DNA from: Methanosarcina barkeri str. Wiesmoor
Lineage (GTDB): Archaea > Halobacteriota > Methanosarcinia > Methanosarcinales > Methanosarcinaceae
Direction: 5' to 3'
NCBI RefSeq assembly: GCF_000969985.1
Contig: NZ_CP009526.1
Coordinates: forward strand, 1,364,001-1,428,000
DNA length: 64,000 nucleotides
Below, in pieces: positions 23,667-38,259 of this stretch (the first letter of the stretch is position 1; every line of letters starts with the position of its first letter). Both the position numbers and the translations under genes were made by a program. The notes beneath the pieces are model-generated. The model was not told the origin of the DNA. It searched no databases and saw only the letters and a program-made list of their open reading frames with translations.

Positions 23667-23737
23667 ATTCTGAAAATGGGTTGAAAATCAAATAGGTTTT
23701 GAACTCAAACTGTATAACGGAAAGGAAACTGATTCAT

Positions 23738-24379
23738 ATGGATTTTGCTACCTGGGAACCGATTTACGAACGAATCCTTGAAGATTTCGGATTCGACCGA
23801 GCAGGTGATGAAAAGGCAGCTTTCTTCCTTTCCCGCATGCTGACAGAAGAAAACACGGCCAGCCTGTCTGAACTCAAAGCAATAATTTCCGGAAAGCCTG
23901 TTCTTGTCTGCGGAAACGCTCCAAGACTCAGGAGTGACCTTTCGGAAATCAATTTTTCTGCCTTTACGTTAATTGCAGCCGATGGAGCAGCTGCTGTACT
24001 AATGGATATGGGCATTGTGCCTGAGGTCATCTGTACCGACCTTGACGGCAATTCAGAAGCTGATATCGAAAAAGAGATACTCGCCTGTGAAGAAGGCTCG
24101 ATAGTCCTTATTCATGCGCATGGGGACAATATCGATAAACTTGAGAAATATGTTCCCCGCTTTAAACGATTTATTGCAACTACCCAGGCAAAACCCTTTG
24201 ATGATGTCTATAATTTTGGCGGCTTCAGTGATGGAGACCGATGCTTTTTTGTAGCCAGAGAATTCGGAGCTCAAAAAATCAGGCTAGTAGGTTTTGATTT
24301 TGAAGACAGCGATGTAAACCCGATTAAGAAAAAGAAATTGAAATGGGCAAAGAAATTAATGGGGACCTATGATTTTTAA
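23738..24379 (+). CDS. mptE: 6-hydroxymethyl-7,8-dihydropterin pyrophosphokinase (archaeal MptE type)
   Basis: MptE transfers pyrophosphate to 6-hydroxymethyldihydropterin in tetrahydromethanopterin/tetrahydrosarcinapterin biosynthesis, supplying the C1 carrier of methanogenesis. The 213-residue protein (DUF115 family) starts MDFATWEPIYERIL. It contains VLVCGNAPRL, LIAADGAAAVLMDMGIVPEVICTDLDG (substrate and metal-binding Asp residues) and VLIHAHGDN. The ATG at 23738 is chosen: it matches the start seen in the two decayed copies, and AAAGGA lies 8-13 nt before it. Two broken copies of this gene lie 4.4 and 7.6 kb downstream, each followed, like this one, by an AT-rich leader module. Confidence 0.92.
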   Translation: MDFATWEPIYERILEDFGFDRAGDEKAAFFLSRMLTEENTASLSELKAIISGKPVLVCGNAPRLRSDLSEINFSAFTLIAADGAAAVLMDMGIVPEVICTDLDGNSEADIEKEILACEEGSIVLIHAHGDNIDKLEKYVPRFKRFIATTQAKPFDDVYNFGGFSDGDRCFFVAREFGAQKIRLVGFDFEDSDVNPIKKKKLKWAKKLMGTYDF

Positions 24380-25070: not shown

Positions 25071-25166
25071 ATGTGTGGATGGTTTGGTGGCTGTGGCTGC
25101 GGCTGGAGTCGTCTCTGGAACAGCTGCTGCGGCTGTGGCTGCGGCGGTTGGGGTGGCTGGTGGTAA
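25071..25166 (+). CDS. Gly/Cys/Trp-rich 31-residue peptide
   Basis: The peptide is 31 residues long. It starts MCGWFGGCGCGW, has a short polar centre (SRLWNS), then CCGCGCGGWGGWW. It contains eight Cys, six Trp and eleven Gly. The start has an excellent ribosome-binding site (TTGGAGGT, 8 nt upstream). The codons are GC-rich in an AT-rich setting, as expected for Gly/Cys, and this supports selection on the product. There is no signal peptide. Possible roles are metal binding, disulfide-linked structural material, or a precursor of a modified peptide; none is shown. Confidence 0.7.
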   Translation: MCGWFGGCGCGWSRLWNSCCGCGCGGWGGWW

Positions 25167-25230
25167 GAATAACTGCTAGGTCAATCTTTGAACCCGTGAA
25201 ATGTTAAGTATGGATGAATAAAAATAGTTG

Positions 25231-25277
25231 TCAATTCAAGATGGAAAGATCACTTCTGATTAATTGTCTTGAATTGA
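25231..25277 (+). terminator. Stem-loop after peptide gene 1
   Basis: An 11-bp perfect stem, TCAATTCAAGA (25231-25241) with TCTTGAATTGA (25267-25277), encloses a 25-nt loop about 65 bp after the peptide stop. It is followed by a TTTTATT run. It may mark the transcript end or protect the 3' end. Confidence 0.55.
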
Positions 25278-25728
25278 TGGCTATGTATTTTATTACATGT
25301 ATGTTCGCAACTATAAGCTTCATATGTTTGAATGTGAAGGGGTTCTATTCAGGCTGATTTGGGTGTAGAGTATTGACAGACCTTCAAATTGAGTCATTAG
25401 TCAAATGAAAATTCGGAGACGATGAATTTTCAACAAAAAAGATAAAGTACTGAAGTTTGAAAACAGAATAAGTAATGTCATTTCCTTTTGCTAAATGCAC
25501 ATTTTTTGAGCTATTAAATAGCTTATAATTTGATAAATATGGTTTTTTGTATTTTTAAGGTTCTATTTTTGTCTTAATTTTAATTTCAGACTATAAATTC
25601 TGATTTTATTGGCTATTCTAAAAATTAAGCTTTCGAAATTAAATATAAGACTAAACTCATTTTATAGAGCATAATTTCTCAGCTTTTTCAATGACTATTT
25701 AGTGTTAAGAACATATTATTCTATTCCA

Positions 25729-25979
25729 TTTATATAATTTACAATTATATTATTAATTGTACTTTCTGGCAATTAAAGTTGAATCTGTCTCTTTTTAAGT
25801 GAAGATAGATTAAAACGCGATTGACAGGAGTAACAATAGGATTGAGGAGTCGATATAATATTTGGCTGAAGGGACATATACTCAAACCCCATATTATATC
25901 TTCCTCGATATATATAAATATATAAATTATATAAAAAAACATACAACGAATAAACATAGTAAATATGGAGGTAAATACA
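25729..25979 (+). ncRNA. Structured leader RNA module L2 with promoter
   Basis: TATA box TTTATATAAT at 25729-25738; predicted start near 25758. P1 pairs CTGGCAAT (25766-25773) with ATTGACAG (25820-25827), with a single internal G/A mismatch. P2 pairs AATCTGTCT (25782-25790) with AGATAGATT (25803-25811). P3 pairs GATATAATAT (25852-25861) with ATATTATATC (25891-25900), ten perfect pairs. The roughly 222-nt leader ends with ATGGAGGT before the peptide ATG. The sequence from 25690 to 25775 is strongly similar to L3, but the paired positions differ in a compensated way. Confidence 0.65.
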
Positions 25980-26171
25980 ATGGGAGGATTTCCATTCTTT
26001 AAAAACAGCTGTGGATGCGGCGGCTGTGGCTACGGCGGCTACGGTGGCTGGGGCGGCTACGGCGGCTGGGGCGGTTGCGGCTGTGGCTGCAATGACAGGA
26101 AAGTTTGCTGCATAACAGCAGTCCGTGCCTGCTGCACCAGGGGCGGCGGCGGCTGGTGGGGCGACTGTTAA
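25980..26171 (+). CDS. Gly/Cys/Tyr-rich 63-residue peptide (MGGFPFFK type)
   Basis: The 63-residue product begins MGGFPFFKNS. A Gly/Cys/Tyr/Trp repeat segment follows (CGCGGCGYGGYGGWGGYGG), then a non-repetitive core CNDRKVCCITAVRACC and a Gly-rich tail ending in Cys. It shares start, core and layout with the gene at 27319. The first ATG after GGAGGT is used; an in-frame ATG at 25965 overlaps the ribosome-binding site. No signal peptide is seen. The conserved core between variable Gly-rich segments argues for a real structured or modified peptide. Confidence 0.75.
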   Translation: MGGFPFFKNSCGCGGCGYGGYGGWGGYGGWGGCGCGCNDRKVCCITAVRACCTRGGGGWWGDC

Positions 26172-26254
26172 GAGCAATCGCTAGGCCAATAGCCGAATGC
26201 TGACTAATAGAACCATGGATTGAATAGACAAATATAAAACATAAAACCGATAGT

Positions 26255-26381
26255 GGCTCATTCATACAGCCCTTTGCCGGGTTATGAAAGCAGGAGAACC
26301 TTGATTGCATCAGAATCTTGGATATATTCAAATATCTCCTGTGATTATCCGGCATCCTTCAAAAAAATTAATGAATGAGCC
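26255..26381 (+). ncRNA. Nested 3' structure after peptide gene 2
   Basis: Three nested stems form one long hairpin: GGCTCATTCAT (26255-26265) with ATGAATGAGCC (26371-26381), eleven perfect pairs; GCCGG(26276-26280)-GTTAT with ATTAT-CCGGC (26344-26353); and CAGGAGA (26291-26297) with TCTCCTG (26335-26341). The loop region ACCTTGATTGCATCAGAA is conserved in the copy at 27584-27718. It lies about 85 bp after the peptide stop. It could be a terminator, a 3' stability element or a separate small RNA. Confidence 0.6.
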
Positions 26382-27072
26382 TATCTCACTTTATTCATCT
26401 CACTTTATTCATTAGCACTAACCCAGTTTAATTGAAGAACCAGTCGCATAGGAATTAAATGATATAATTCTGAACATTTTTACAGATCTTAAAATAGATC
26501 TGCATTTATTTTGTTTTTCCATAAGCTATCCTGATTTTTCATACTATCTACTCGCGAATCATATACCAGTGCCGAGTCTATCACAAAATGTCGTATAAAA
26601 TAGATTGCAATTATTTGGAATCGATGAATCCTTGAGGATTGACGCGACACTAGAGTCTCATCTGGTTACTCTAATTCTGGCTTCAGATTGGTTTTTTAGT
26701 TCAGTTTTGAAAGTAATTTAATCGAAAATTAAGTGTTTAGAAGAAGTAGTCAACTTTACGAATATTCAACTTTTGTATAAAAACGTTAAAATATTAAAGT
26801 TCAAAAATCAGATGAGTAATACTATTTTTGTTCGCTAAATTCACATGTATTAAGCCTCTAAAATGGTTATAATTAGATAATATAACTTATCCATGCCATA
26901 GAGGCTTTATTTTTGCATAAATATTGAATTGGAAACTTAAACTCTTGATTTTATATAACTAAAAGGAATTAAAATTCGTAAATTAAACGTAAAATTAAAC
27001 GCGTTTTACGGAGCATGATTTCCCAGCTTTTTCAATGACTATTTAATATTAAGGACTTATTATTCTATCATG
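26382..27072. other. AT-rich gap before leader L3
   Basis: About 690 bases without a gene. The part from about 26750 on resembles the stretch before L2 (25440-25728) in order and wording, for example the shared CAGCTTTTTCAATGACTATT close to the TATA box. No remnant of mptE is seen here. Confidence 0.5.
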
Positions 27073-27318
27073 CTTATATAATCTACAATTATATTATTAA
27101 TTGTATTTCCTGACAACTAAATGTAAATCTGCTTCTCTTTACGCGAACGCAGACCAAAATACGGTTTTCAGGAATAACAATAGAGTTGGCGAGTCGATAT
27201 ATAATTTGATTGGAGAAACACGCTCCAGTCTAAAAAATATATTTGCTCTATATAAAAAGCTGTGTAAATTAACTAGAAAAATATACAACAATAAAATATA
27301 AAATCTGGAGGTAGTTAT
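27073..27318 (+). ncRNA. Structured leader RNA module L3 with promoter
   Basis: TATA box CTTATATAATC at about 27073-27083; predicted start near 27102. P1 pairs TTCCTGA-C-AAC (27107-27117) with GTT-T-TCAGGAA (27164-27174), ten pairs around one mismatch. P2 pairs TCTGC (27128-27132) with GCAGA (27149-27153). P3 contains TGGAG (27211-27215) with CTCCA (27223-27227). GAGTCGATATA precedes P3 as in L2. The leader is about 217 nt and ends with CTGGAGGT. Against L2 the P1 arms change on both sides. Confidence 0.65.
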
Positions 27319-27504
27319 ATGGGAGGATTTCCATTCTTTAAAAAGTTCGGCGGTTGCGGCTGCGGTGGCTGGTGTGGCTGCGGCGGCTGGGGCGGCTGGG
27401 GCGGCTTTGGTGGTTGTGGCTGCAATGATAGGAAAGTTTGCTGCATAACAGCAATCCGTGTCTGTAAGATTAAAGGCTGCGGCTGTGGATGCTGCGACTG
27501 TTAA
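27319..27504 (+). CDS. Gly/Cys/Trp-rich 61-residue peptide (MGGFPFFK type)
   Basis: The 61-residue paralogue of the product at 25980 begins MGGFPFFKKF. It has a CGCGGWCGCGGWGGWGGFGG repeat segment, the shared core CNDRKVCCITAIRVC and a tail KIKGCGCGCCDC. The paralogues differ most in the repeat and tail, with Trp exchanged for Tyr. The ribosome-binding site is TGGAGGT. With 14 Cys it could bind several metal ions or form many disulfides. No export signal is seen. Confidence 0.75.
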   Translation: MGGFPFFKKFGGCGCGGWCGCGGWGGWGGFGGCGCNDRKVCCITAIRVCKIKGCGCGCCDC

Positions 27505-27583
27505 GAGCAATCGTTAGGCCAATAGCTGAATGCTGATTTATCAACCATGGATTAAGTAAATAGGTATAAATTAAGACCGATAG

Positions 27584-27718
27584 TGGGCTCATTTGTACAA
27601 TCCTTCGCCGGGATACAGAAGCAGGAGAACCTTGATTGCATCAGAACCCTGAAATGTATTGAAAGGTATCTCCTGTGATTAACTGACAATATTCAGTAAG
27701 GATTAACGAATAAGCCCA
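27584..27718 (+). ncRNA. Nested 3' structure after peptide gene 3
   Basis: The counterpart of 26255-26381. The outer stem pairs TGGGCTCATTTGT (27584-27596) with ACGAATAAGCCCA (27706-27718), with one mismatch and one G-T pair. The inner stem pairs CAGGAGA (27622-27628) with TCTCCTG (27669-27675). Compared with the other copy the outer stem has an A-T to G-C double change. Inner-loop residues ACCTTGATTGCATCAGAA are identical. Confidence 0.6.
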
Positions 27719-27963
27719 GTCTCATTTTATTCATTCGAGTGACATTATTTAATTGAAAAACCAATAGCATAAGAATTCAAACAATTTAATTTTGGGCATT
27801 TATCACAGATCTTAAAACAGAGTTTCAGGTATGACATCTCTTTGATCTCAGTTTTGGAAATACTATTACAGGACTCTACAAAACTAAAAATCTCTCTGTT
27901 ATATTCTTACTTTTAAATCCATCTGAGTCTATCTGTATCATCATTCTTCTCTTTTTCTTCTAG

Positions 27964-28178: not shown

Positions 28179-28796
28179 ATGGATTTTACTGCCAGGAAAT
28201 CAATTTACGAACGAATCTTGAGAATTTCAGGTTCGACCTAGCAGGCGATGAAAAGGTAACTCTCTTCCTTTCCGGCATGCTGACAGAAGAAAACACGGTC
28301 AGCTTTTCTGAACTCAAAGCAATGGTTTCCGGAAAGCCTGTCTTTGTCTGCGGACGCGCTCCAGGGCTCAGGAGTGACCTTTCGGAAATCAATTTTTGGA
28401 TTTTGCGGTAATTGCAGCCGATGGAGCCGCTGCTGTACTCATGGTTATGGGTATTGTGCCGAGGTCATCTTTACCGATTGATGCTAATTCTAAAGCTGGT
28501 GTTGAAAAGGGAACCCTTGATTGTAGAAATAGCAAGGTAGTTATTATTCACGCGCATAAGGGCAAAATATCGATAACCTTGAAGAATCTATGACTCGCTT
28601 TAAACGATTTATTGCAACTACCCAGGAAAGGCCTCTTAGCAAGGTCTACAATATTTTATTATCCATTCAAGGAAACCGATACGTTTTTTATACAATGGAG
28701 TTCCCGATAAAAATAGTTGAACTTGACGAATTTGATTTTGAGGATTTGAGAGTGAACCTAGTTAAGAAAAAGAAGCTGAAGTGGCTGAGAGAATAA
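28179..28796 (+). pseudogene. Decayed mptE copy 2
   Basis: It aligns with mptE from ATG to the end, but several frameshifts break it: a 1-nt loss around codon 10 (ATC-TTGAGAATTTC), a shift at NFW/DFAVIAADGA (about 28397), and loss of one base in GTGCC-GAGGTCATC (about 28459). Recognisable pieces are LTEENTVSFSELKAM, FAVIAADGAAAVLM, RFKRFIATTQE and KKKLKW. The second and third lesions are shared with copy 3, so the two broken copies descend from one already broken ancestor. Confidence 0.88.
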
Positions 28797-29229
28797 ATTT
28801 GAATGTTGGAACTTTAAAGCAAAAAGTTCTTCTTAAGGATGGTTAAAGTGCAGGAAGTCAAGAAAATCCCAAATATGTATCCTTTGAATAAATCCGGTTT
28901 TTATATTTTTAGAAATAAAACACTAATTTTAATTAAATATATAAAGTATATTAGTTTGAATTTAAAGTGATATTCCTAATTTTTTTCATAAAATCAACTT
29001 TTTTATGGGCTATAATTTAATTCAATTAAGAAATAAAGCTTATTTTTTCATAATAAATTCAATTTTCGTTTTGAATATGAAAATTAAGAGTTTGAATCCC
29101 TTTTTATTAGCGTTTAATAAGAGAACACCATAATATAAATTTAATAAATAAGTATATCCATATTTTCCCGTGAAATTCGTCTAGATTTTATAGGACTATT
29201 TAATTGTAAGTAAAATTTATTCTATATGC

Positions 29230-29454: not shown

Positions 29455-29550
29455 ATGTTCGATATTATTAGACAGATGGTTGCAATTAGGCAGATATCTG
29501 GCGGCACGGCAGATCAGATTGCTGTTGGAGTTAACGTCCTGGTATTTTAA
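29455..29550 (+). CDS. 31-residue amphipathic peptide
   Basis: The 31-residue product begins MFDIIRQMVAIRQISGG and ends QIAVGVNVLVF. It has no Cys and is unlike the Gly/Cys peptides, although it follows the same type of leader. A strong purine-rich ribosome-binding site (GGGGGGAAA) precedes the ATG. The N-terminal half could be an amphipathic helix and the C-terminal half a hydrophobic strand. The gene call rests on the leader and ribosome-binding site and not on homology. Confidence 0.5.
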   Translation: MFDIIRQMVAIRQISGGTADQIAVGVNVLVF

Positions 29551-29597
29551 GTATTAACCTTGTAACGAAAATGATAAAAACGGAAAGAATTTAAAAA

Positions 29598-29638
29598 TTA
29601 GGACTTGCGTGCTTCTCTTTCAATCATGCAAGTCCTAA
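29598..29638 (+). terminator. Stem-loop after peptide gene 4
   Basis: An 11-bp perfect stem, TTAGGACTTGC (29598-29608) with GCAAGTCCTAA (29628-29638), lies 48 bp after the stop codon. It occupies the same relative place as the stem-loop at 25231 but has unrelated sequence. Confidence 0.6.
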
Positions 29639-29820
29639 ATAAGTCCCTGATAATAGAAATGAGGTTGTACAATTTTAGGATAACAAGGTGCAAATTAATG
29701 AACAAGTATAATGGACAATGTTCCTTGAATTTATCTTGTCTTGAACTAGTGGTTGTGGACCCATTTCTTTAAGGAATACATAATTGACACTAGGATACAT
29801 CAAAAGAGGAGGGAAGTATA

Positions 29821-29946
29821 ATGGCTTTAATCGATATGCCTATTGATATTGGTATAGCAAACCAATTTATCACAGCAGCCCAAGCTTCATTTGCTGGGTC
29901 ACAAGTTACAGATCTATTAAACTTATTTAGCTTGATATTTGGATAA
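29821..29946 (+). CDS. 41-residue hydrophobic peptide
   Basis: The 41-residue product begins MALIDMPIDIGIANQFI and ends LLNLFSLIFG. It is uncharged apart from three Asp and is strongly hydrophobic. The ribosome-binding site GAGGAGGGAA lies 7 nt before the ATG. A paralogue lies 260 bp downstream with a matching upstream stretch (CATTTCT-TAAGGAA-ACATA). Possible roles include a membrane-active peptide, a small membrane regulator or a peptide toxin; none can be fixed from sequence. Confidence 0.6.
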   Translation: MALIDMPIDIGIANQFITAAQASFAGSQVTDLLNLFSLIFG

Positions 29947-30205
29947 AATGAACCTAACTTGATAACAGGCAATAATTGAACAAATATAACAATGGGCGAA
30001 TATTTTTGGAGTTCATGTTATCTTAAACTAGTGTCTTGGCAATTTAATTGTTGAGCATTATCTTAGTAGCTTCTCATCAGAGTACACTGATTTTGAGCTC
30101 ATTAGATAATTAATAATTAAATTTTCATGACACTGGTGGCTGTGAACTCATTTCTCTAAGGAACACATAGGATATTAGAATACATGAAAAGAGGAGGAAA
30201 TTACA

Positions 30206-30322
30206 ATGGCTTTTATCTATATACCTATTAATATCAATATATTAAACCAATTTATCATAGCAACCCAAATTTCAGGTGCTGGATCACAAACTATGGATCT
30301 ATTTAACTGGATATTTGGATAA
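30206..30322 (+). CDS. 38-residue hydrophobic peptide, paralogue of 29821
   Basis: The 38-residue product begins MAFIYIPINININIL-like (MAFIYIPININILNQFI) and ends MDLFNWIFG. Shared positions with the peptide at 29821 include MA-I--PI-I-I-NQFI-A-Q, AGSQ, DL and IFG at the C-terminus. All Asp residues of the first half are replaced by Tyr or Asn. The ribosome-binding site is GAGGAGGAAA. Conservation of frame, length and both ends while the middle diverges indicates a real gene pair. Confidence 0.6.
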   Translation: MAFIYIPININILNQFIIATQISGAGSQTMDLFNWIFG

Positions 30323-30500
30323 AATAACCTAACTTAATAAAAGGCAATAAAAAATCCGACTAATTTAGTTGCGTTGGAGTATTCCACAGTGAGCAGTAGA
30401 TGTGTACTTGCATCACCGTTCATTTTAAGATGTGAATCAAGTTCATGTTGTAGCTTTTACACGTAACTCAGCGCATAATGTAGCCAAGTGAAAAAGGGTG

Positions 30501-30568
30501 CATGAGAAAGAGTTAAGCAATTGCCTGCGAAGCGGGTAATTGCTTAACTTTTGACAAATTGTCTCATG
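30501..30568 (+). ncRNA. Strong nested stem-loop
   Basis: GTTAAGCAATT (30512-30522) pairs perfectly with AATTGCTTAAC (30538-30548) and is extended inward by GCCTG/CGGGT. An outer stem pairs CATGAGA (30501-30507) with TCTCATG (30562-30568), and flanking AAGG/CCTT may add to it. It follows the hydrophobic peptide pair by 180 bp, and a TTTT tract follows the inner stem. It is a terminator or a small-RNA candidate. Confidence 0.55.
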
Positions 30569-30684
30569 ACCACCTTTTAAACATATAATGAATAAGCCCT
30601 TAGATTCATTTTATCTTCAACTGGTGGCTATGTAGAGTGCCAGATAAAATATAATAAACATACGAAAGATAGAGGAAATTATTA

Positions 30685-31134: not shown

Positions 31135-31308
31135 TGGAATATTGGGTTTTATTTCTATCTATCTGTTTATTCTCAATATCAATCTTACTTGAGTGTTATT
31201 TACCGGCGTCTCATAGGCTGGATTCTGGCAATTCTAACTGTAAACATGTTTTTGTACTTGTAAAAATTCAACTCTGCGACTGAGGAATGAAACCTGAGTA
31301 GGTATTGA
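31135..31308 (+). pseudogene. Second, more decayed membrane-protein remnant
   Basis: It aligns with 27964-28149 (shared TATTCTCAATATCAA, AGTGTTATTTAC, GTAAACATGTTT / ATAAACATGTTT, AAAATTCAACTCTGCG). It has a TAA in the second helix region (TACTTGTAAAAATTC) and further stops and indels. It stands directly before decayed mptE copy 3, like the remnant before copy 2. Confidence 0.5.
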
Positions 31309-31313
31309 TTCAT

Positions 31314-31930
31314 ATGGATTTTGCTACCTGGGAACCGATTTACGAACGAATACTTGAGGACTTCAGGTTCAACCGAATAGATGATGAAAAGGTAACTCTC
31401 TTCCTTTCCGGCATGTCGACAGAAGAAAACACGGTCAGCTTTTCTGAACTCAAAGCAATGGTTTCCGAAAATCCTGTCTTTGTCTGCGGACGCGCTCCAG
31501 GGCTCGGGAGTGACCTTTCGGAAATCAATTTTTGGATTTTGCGGTAATTGCAGCCGATGGAGCCGCTGCCATACTAATGGATATGGGTATTGTGCTGAGG
31601 TCATTTGTACTGACTCAACAGCAATTCTGAAGAGAACTCGACAAGAGATACCTGCCTGTGAGCATCGTTCGTCAATTCTGACCCTGACATCAGGATACTA
31701 TTTATAAGCTCGAACACGTGCTCACTTCCAGCTCTTTATCGCAACTACCCGGATAAAGCCTTTAGGTAAAGTCTACAATTTTGGAGGATTCCTTTAGGAA
31801 AACCGATGAGTTTTTATCGCAAAGGAGTTTCCCGCAAAAACTGTTAAACTTGCTGTATTTGATTTTGAGGATTCGAGAGTGAACCTGGTTAAGAAAAAGA
31901 AGTTGAAGTAAGCGAAAGAATTAATTGGAA
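31314..31930 (+). pseudogene. Decayed mptE copy 3
   Basis: The first 77 codons are intact (MDFATWEPIYERILEDF ... FVCGRAPGL), then the frame breaks at the same NFW/DFAVIAADGA shift as copy 2. The GTGC-TGAGGTCAT lesion follows, and the second half is scrambled by indels and stops (TTTAGG, AAGTAAGCG). The first stop met is TAA at 31545, so pyrrolysine read-through does not rescue it. The 3' flank (AAAAGTTCTTCTTAAGGATG) is nearly identical to that of copy 2. Confidence 0.88.
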
Positions 31931-36855: not shown

Positions 36856-38259
36856 TCAGGCAATCTGCTTTCTGAAGAGATTGCAGGAATTAATTTTAAT
36901 ATCGAGCAACTTTTCGATGTTCATCTTTGCAGCAATACCTTTTGCCGCGCCTGGTACTGACGTTATAATACCAATATCGAGTTCTTCACGCAGCTCGCGC
37001 ATAACGTGCTCGTCTACGAGGTCCATCTTGTCGACGCCAAGTTTCTTTGCGACGTACTCTTTTGCCTCGCCTATGCGCATATTTTTCGAGAACTCCATTC
37101 TTGCAACAAGGTCACCTGCAGCTCTAATTCCAGTCATACCTGAAGCCATTATATGGGAAATCGGCATACCCATCGGGTCGCCGACTCCGATCTATATGCC
37201 GTCGACACCTGCAATTTCGACCATTGCCTTGCTGGCCCTTGTAACTGCATCAATAGGAGGAGTTTCAAGCATCGGAATTCCGCCGACCCCCATACCCATA
37301 TTTACGTGACAGGGAATTGGAGAAGCTTCTACTGCAGCCTTGATGAAAGTAACTGCACGAGCAAGGTTCCAGGCTGAGGTCTTACTGGTATTTGTGTTGC
37401 ATACTGGCCCGAAAACATTTGCTCCGGCTTTTGCAATAAGCGGAGCCTGTTCATGCGGCCATGAACCTGCGAGCCGCACTCCATCATATTCCAATTCTCC
37501 ATGCATACCGAGTACCATCTCGCCAGCCATTCCGGCTTCAATATACATATCAGGGAACTCTTTTCTAAGAGCCTGGATTGCATAAAGTGTGCCGTACATA
37601 TCTCCGTCGCCTGCTGCGCCGGTTGTATCAAAGTTAACTCCATCGGCCCCTGAAGCAAAAAGTTTCTGCATAACCCAGACCGTGTCTCTGGTAAGGTGTT
37701 CTGCAGCGTGTTCCATAGATTCTTTTGCTTTATCAATCTTGAATAGCTTCATAAGGTCCCCAGGATTCTCAAAAGGCCCGTCAGGAGTATAATAAAGTCC
37801 CATATTGGGCATTGCTCCGTAAAACAGTGGAATGATCATGTTCTGCTGGCAAACTTCCATTGCCTGACACTCGTTTGATACGACAGGTTTTACCGGCTTG
37901 AAACTGTAATCAATGTGCCCGAGTTCCATCGTGTCGGCACCAAAAGCACGCTCGTGCATCATGCAGCCCACTAAACGGCTTGAAGGAATGCCAACTCCAC
38001 TGTTCCCCTGATCACCATCAAGCCTGATAGTGCCGATATCGTGTGTTACAGGAATTTCCATACCCTGTTCGACACTAACGGTCTTGCCAGGCATCATAAG
38101 GATCTCTGCAAGCTTGTCCATTTCATTGTCATTCAGAGCAGGAATATCACCAAGGTCGGCAGCATTTGCAGTTCCGGCCTCGATCTCCGCCATTATTTTT
38201 TCTTTGGTAAGGAAGACACGTTTCCCGTCTCCCATTCTCAAAGCGTATTCAGTTGCCAT
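36856..38259 (-). CDS. mtbB: Dimethylamine:corrinoid methyltransferase, pyrrolysine-containing
   Basis: MtbB moves a methyl group from dimethylamine to the corrinoid of MtbC, releasing methylamine. The coding region is 467 residues including one in-frame TAG (complement of 37192-37194) at codon 356, in the context AGVDGI[13 protein letters not shown]. The reading frame continues 111 codons to a TAG-independent stop, and the protein has family length only if the TAG is read as pyrrolysine. A conventional reading would split it into ORFs of 355 and 105 codons. It lies 82 bp after mtbC. Expression should depend on the pyl genes elsewhere in the genome. Confidence 0.97.

Follow-up and report, generated by a model that had tools for sequence, protein, structure and literature searches.

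Conserved, covarying folds behind small-protein genes of Methanosarcina point to an RNA control or 3'-end module

The window, a stretch of 64,000 nucleotides from Methanosarcina barkeri str. Wiesmoor, belongs to a Methanosarcina genome of 4.9 Mb and carries a pyrrolysine insertion element at 37095-37194. Three small ORFs (pep1, pep2 and pep3) are flanked on one side by an isoleucyl-tRNA synthetase gene and the gene next to it, and on the other by degenerate copies of the latter. All three encode Gly/Cys/Trp-rich peptides, have a predicted GGAGG ribosome site and return no family match in Pfam or NCBIfam. The cluster comprises:

25071-25166, + strand: pep1, 31-aa Cys/Gly/Trp peptide ORF, first in the cluster; the order is the same in relatives
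25224-25284, + strand: pep1's own, different 3' hairpin, ATAGTTGTCAATTCAAGA..TCTTGAATTGATGGCTAT, with tail ATTTTATT; conserved across species
25980-26171, + strand: pep2, 63-aa Gly/Cys/Trp-rich ORF with the GGAGG site immediately 5'; ORF kept in Methanosarcina
27319-27504, + strand: pep3, 61-aa paralogue of pep2; ORF kept in Methanosarcina

pep2 and pep3 form units that are duplicated in full, with 5' leader, ORF and 3' region all aligning. Their best conserved stretch is the promoter and the start of the leader (25675-25760 and 27017-27100), with an identity of about 0.88-0.96 across orthologues. Here, a TATA-like TTTATATAA precedes a leader of approximately 200 nt, which opens with the pairing stretch TTTCTGGCAAT..ATTGACAGGA. 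Peptides of the pep2/pep3 type were detected in 12 of 31 Methanosarcina genomes. The gene at 23699-24379, which resembles a 6-hydroxymethylpterin pyrophosphokinase (MptE-like), recurs as degenerate partial copies after the peptide units, at 28190-28800 and 31305-31910, which suggests tandem duplication of the region.

Each of pep2 and pep3 is followed by a long folded segment, and these are called E2 and E3:

26253-26383, + strand: E2, full model match, 131 nt (cmsearch with covariance model R1, 112.7 bits, E 9e-22, the sequence being itself part of R1; fold z -4.66)
26255-26265, + strand: E2 P1 5' arm (closing stem), GGCTCATTCAT; pairs with 26371-26381; compensatory changes keep P1
26276-26280, + strand: E2 P2b 5' arm, GCCGG; pairs with CCGGC at 26349-26353; 83% of cells paired with zero double changes, hence weaker support
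26290-26297, + strand: E2 P3 5' arm, GCAGGAGA; pairs with TCTCCTGT at 26335-26342; P3 covaries over 53 copies
26371-26381, + strand: E2 P1 3' arm, ATGAATGAGCC; pairs with 26255-26265
26383-26398, + strand: E2 T-rich tail, ATCTCACTTTATTCAT; putative U-tract terminator; tail conserved in other copies
27584-27718, + strand: E3, full model match, 135 nt (R1, 148.4 bits, E 2.4e-29, this sequence too being part of R1; fold z -5.69)
27585-27596, + strand: E3 P1 5' arm, GGGCTCATTTGT; pairs with ACGAATAAGCCC at 27706-27717; one C.A mismatch
27621-27633, + strand: E3 P3 5' arm, GCAGGAGAACCTT; pairs with 27663-27676
27706-27717, + strand: E3 P1 3' arm, ACGAATAAGCCC; pairs with 27585-27596
27719-27734, + strand: E3 T-rich tail, GTCTCATTTTATTCAT, read from the sequence; tail conserved in other copies

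A sequence-only reading of the window had described two related, nested hairpins after the second and third peptide genes, and the minimum free energy (MFE) folds bear this out. Both folds are the nested structure, with z of -4.7 and -5.7 against dinucleotide shuffles, and in each case 0 of 200 shuffles were as stable. The identical segment that the reading had placed in both hairpins is likewise there, as GCAGGAGAACCTTGATTGCATCAGAA occurs exactly at 26290-26315 and 27621-27646, where the chance expectation is 0. The reported alteration of the outer stem on both arms, ATTCAT/ATGAAT versus ATTTGT/ACGAAT, was found in P1 of E2 and E3. In the E2 tail, CTCACTTTATTCAT stands twice in tandem up to 26412 (26384-26412), a duplication that E3 does not have.

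Because the gene unit around E2 and E3 is itself duplicated, the pair on its own is weak proof; homologues were therefore collected, and it is the wider alignments that provide the evidence. BLAST with the 3' region found 11 of 60 genomes (own genome included), every one Methanosarcina and with the same gene order, and the full-length copies in these 11 genomes sit 3' of a pep2- or pep3-like ORF. Searching with the paired structure was among the checks proposed in the sequence-only reading. Here, R1 detected the full-length element, with pairing conserved through compensatory changes, in 13 of the 31 Methanosarcina genomes and gave no match in 120 relatives outside the genus. Model R2, which is built on sequence only and covers the 5' half of the element, yielded approximately 65 matches (E<0.02) spread over 20 of the 31 genomes; in 150 genomes of the order its scores beyond the genus were at chance level only. 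Rfam 15 has nothing over the element at the gathering threshold (matches at E<=5 are at chance level, far below gathering scores), and the phage and plasmid collections searched gave no match. In GTDB genome contigs, the exact core pattern occurs in Methanosarcina sp. UBA5, and single 19-mer matches in a Dehalococcoidia MAG and a Thorarchaeota MAG were taken as chance. E2 and E3 are members of one RNA family, which appears to be restricted to Methanosarcina, there being no convincing match elsewhere.

The nested structure was then evaluated on alignments of 18 and 23 copies, in which 88-89% of cells are paired, compared to 34-51% in slid controls. RNAalifold gave a z of about -10.6 against column shuffles, none of 200 being as low, and both P1 and P3 show changes on both sides of the stems in these two alignments. 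These shuffle tests are lenient because the copies are related, and the count of pairs with a double change shows no clear excess over shuffles. Further support came from P3 over 53 copies of the pep class (those behind pep2/pep3-type genes) and the secreted class described below, where covariation was 0.365; shuffles gave 0.288, none of 500 reaching the observed value, and slid controls 0.14-0.21. In P3, G.U occupies 95 cells and A.C 49; this roughly two-fold preference favours the sense strand, as would follow from selection acting on the sense RNA. The balance in P1 is neutral, with 16 G.U and 18 A.C cells, so that P1 alone is no proof of the sense strand. Two of the R1 matches, L050 and L051, were left out of the P1 pair counts, their 3' halves being forced alignments into a palindromic insert. 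P3 is absent from the single-sequence MFE in about half of the rows of alignment A7, mostly secreted-class ones.

Constraint is also seen outside the helices. An internal strand, ACAGUCCUNNGUCGGAUUACAGAARCAG, is conserved, and the loop GATTGCATCAGAA is strongly conserved in the pep class. Throughout the alignment there are insertions and deletions of single bases, which shows that the element is not coding. Across pep2/pep3 orthologues the identity of the element is 0.62-0.85, compared to 0.42-0.76 for the ORF, and conservation stays above that of coding sequence over much of the length of the element.

The second class of copies lies behind a different gene family. Four weak R1 matches stand directly 3' of unrelated genes, which encode signal-peptide proteins with Cys/Trp/Lys/Asp-rich repeats and the signal peptide consensus xxKKTLxILxLVxFVxSxTAASxSA. 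As seven secreted-class sequences went into the training of R2, its discovery of this class is not independent; the 38 new copies were, however, fetched blind to context, position and strand playing no part in the search. Behind the stop codon of a secreted low-complexity repeat-protein ORF, on the same strand, lie 34 of these 38, a number that exceeds that of the independent events since many of the genes are duplicates. The gap is 11-264 nt with a median of 31, and is at most 50 nt in 30 of the 34. The other four comprise L179, which stands behind such a gene lacking its start, L159 and L160, both behind a possible remnant, and L187, which has none. The protein family itself reaches up to 16 matches per genome and is present in 29 of the 31 genomes; the element is found behind some of its genes only, others ending in different long hairpins.

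In at least 16 secreted-class copies the P1 3' arm (TTACGAATGAGT and variants) lies 110-250 nt downstream and is followed by a T-rich tail. This class also has a third helix, P2c, with compensatory changes: GGAUUGCAGG..CAGU / ACUGG.CCUGCAAUC, GUUGG/CCAGC, GCUGG/CCAGC and GCAGG/CCUGC. In most of these copies a MITE-like palindrome of about 115 bp, AGGACTTACGCAGTT...AACTGCGTAAGTCCT, makes up a large arm after P3. It occupies one fixed spot inside the secreted-class elements (L163, L166, L168, L171, L175, L192 and others), where it would add a further arm to the RNA, and is missing from E2 and E3. The same palindrome is dispersed over the genome analysed here on both strands, with 42 matches versus 2 for a control.

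Could the element itself be such a DNA-level palindromic repeat, a MITE-like sequence or recombination site that hitchhikes with duplicating genes? Like MITE/REP-type repeats it is a dispersed, multi-copy imperfect palindrome, and R1 gives even E2 and E3 a weak score on their reverse strand. In addition, many secreted-class copies contain the MITE-like sequence, which also recurs on both strands in other parts of the genome. We nevertheless hold this explanation to be highly improbable, as orientation and place follow the neighbouring gene, both in the 34 of 38 copies above and generally, all but very few copies standing close 3' of a small ORF and in the same orientation. The compensatory changes over species and the sense-strand preference for G.U rather than A.C in P3 are likewise unlike what such repeats show.

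A plain transcription terminator, in which a hairpin and U-tract have no further role, is improbable to a lesser degree. Almost every copy of the pep class, and many of the secreted class, have the T-rich tract directly 3' of P1, where the transcript would be expected to end, as in archaeal terminators of the U-tract/aCPSF1 (FttA) type; hairpins do lie upstream of some archaeal 3' ends and may contribute in some cases (PMC7237163). In archaea, including M. mazei, U-rich 3' ends form without a required hairpin, aCPSF1 terminating at the U-tract (PMC8716108, PMC10450193). A long, conserved, covarying fold therefore exceeds a simple terminator, for which 130-270 nt, several helices and conserved unpaired sequence would all be superfluous (PMC8716108 for the dispensable hairpin). 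The constraint extends beyond hairpin and tract, to multi-helix covariation and the internal strand. The sequence-only reading had already argued for a specific 3' RNA element beyond a terminator, and on this point covariation, conservation, the second gene family and published work on archaeal termination lend it good support.

That reading also proposed, as an alternative, a separately processed small RNA. Whether derived from the 3'-UTR or independently transcribed, such an RNA would be released as a stable species of 130-270 nt and act in trans. The compact, closed fold with its T-rich tail and the strongly conserved pep-class loop would suit such a molecule, and a TATA-like A/T-rich stretch lies 22-25 nt 5' of P1 in most copies. 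In M. mazei, numerous small RNAs carry small ORFs as well (PMC11456600), and the element resembles these dual-function sRNAs/spRNAs, and the 3'-UTR-derived sRNAs of bacteria, in being a structured RNA joined to small-protein mRNAs with a 3' tail of its own. It differs from both in being restricted to one gene context and in having no Rfam match. A start about 25-30 nt past the TATA-like box would fall inside P1, and an own promoter was rejected on this spacing; pairing with the U-rich tail also explains the A-rich strand. Conservation of the loop does not extend to the secreted class. Kissing with the loop of the pep1 3' hairpin, TTCTGAT, was likewise discarded, as the 7-nt match seen in the window is lost in relatives. 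Taken together, we regard a small RNA as rather unlikely, if less so than a bare terminator.

We lean towards a cis-acting role, in which E2 and E3 would be copies of a Methanosarcina-specific structured 3'-UTR element that provides the folded 3' end of small-protein mRNAs and serves stability or 3'-end definition. The fixed sense-strand place behind a stop codon, together with conserved pairing, is what such an element would display. Transcription would end in the U-rich tract beside P1 by aCPSF1/FttA-type termination. P1 would then seal the end of the mRNA, and the element, now its folded 3' end, may act in cis on stability or 3'-end definition and shield the message from 3'-5' decay. The internal strand is conserved beyond the needs of pairing, which suggests a common binding factor for which it may be the recognition site. 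Such a factor could provide joint post-transcriptional regulation of the secreted and the Cys-rich small proteins. A more tentative reading, possible but not favoured, is a genus-wide post-transcriptional regulon, in which one RNA-binding factor or released RNA might recognise the common 3' element and jointly control many secreted low-complexity proteins and Gly/Cys/Trp-rich peptides.

To our knowledge, conserved structured 3'-UTR RNA families have hardly been described in archaea, and a search of the open-access literature, which was not exhaustive, found no earlier description of such an element. The alignments and gene contexts point to a hitherto undescribed module for RNA control or for the 3' end. 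Dozens of copies with a clear gene context make 3'-UTR control in methanogens directly testable, and the element offers an entry point to two uncharacterised families of small proteins.

Since pep1 also ends in a conserved hairpin, of another kind but with a comparable tail, a folded 3' end seems to be common to these small genes in general. The stretch 29455-30322 contains another three short ORFs of 31, 41 and 38 aa, which have strong ribosome sites and no Pfam or NCBIfam match. Downstream, 3' of the small ORF at 30206-30322, is a strong hairpin at 30480-30612 (AAGAGTTAAGCAATTGCC..) that gave no model match; it is followed by AATGAATAAGCCCTTAGATTCATTTTAT, resembling the P1 3' arm and tail of the element, and is perhaps a decayed or related element.
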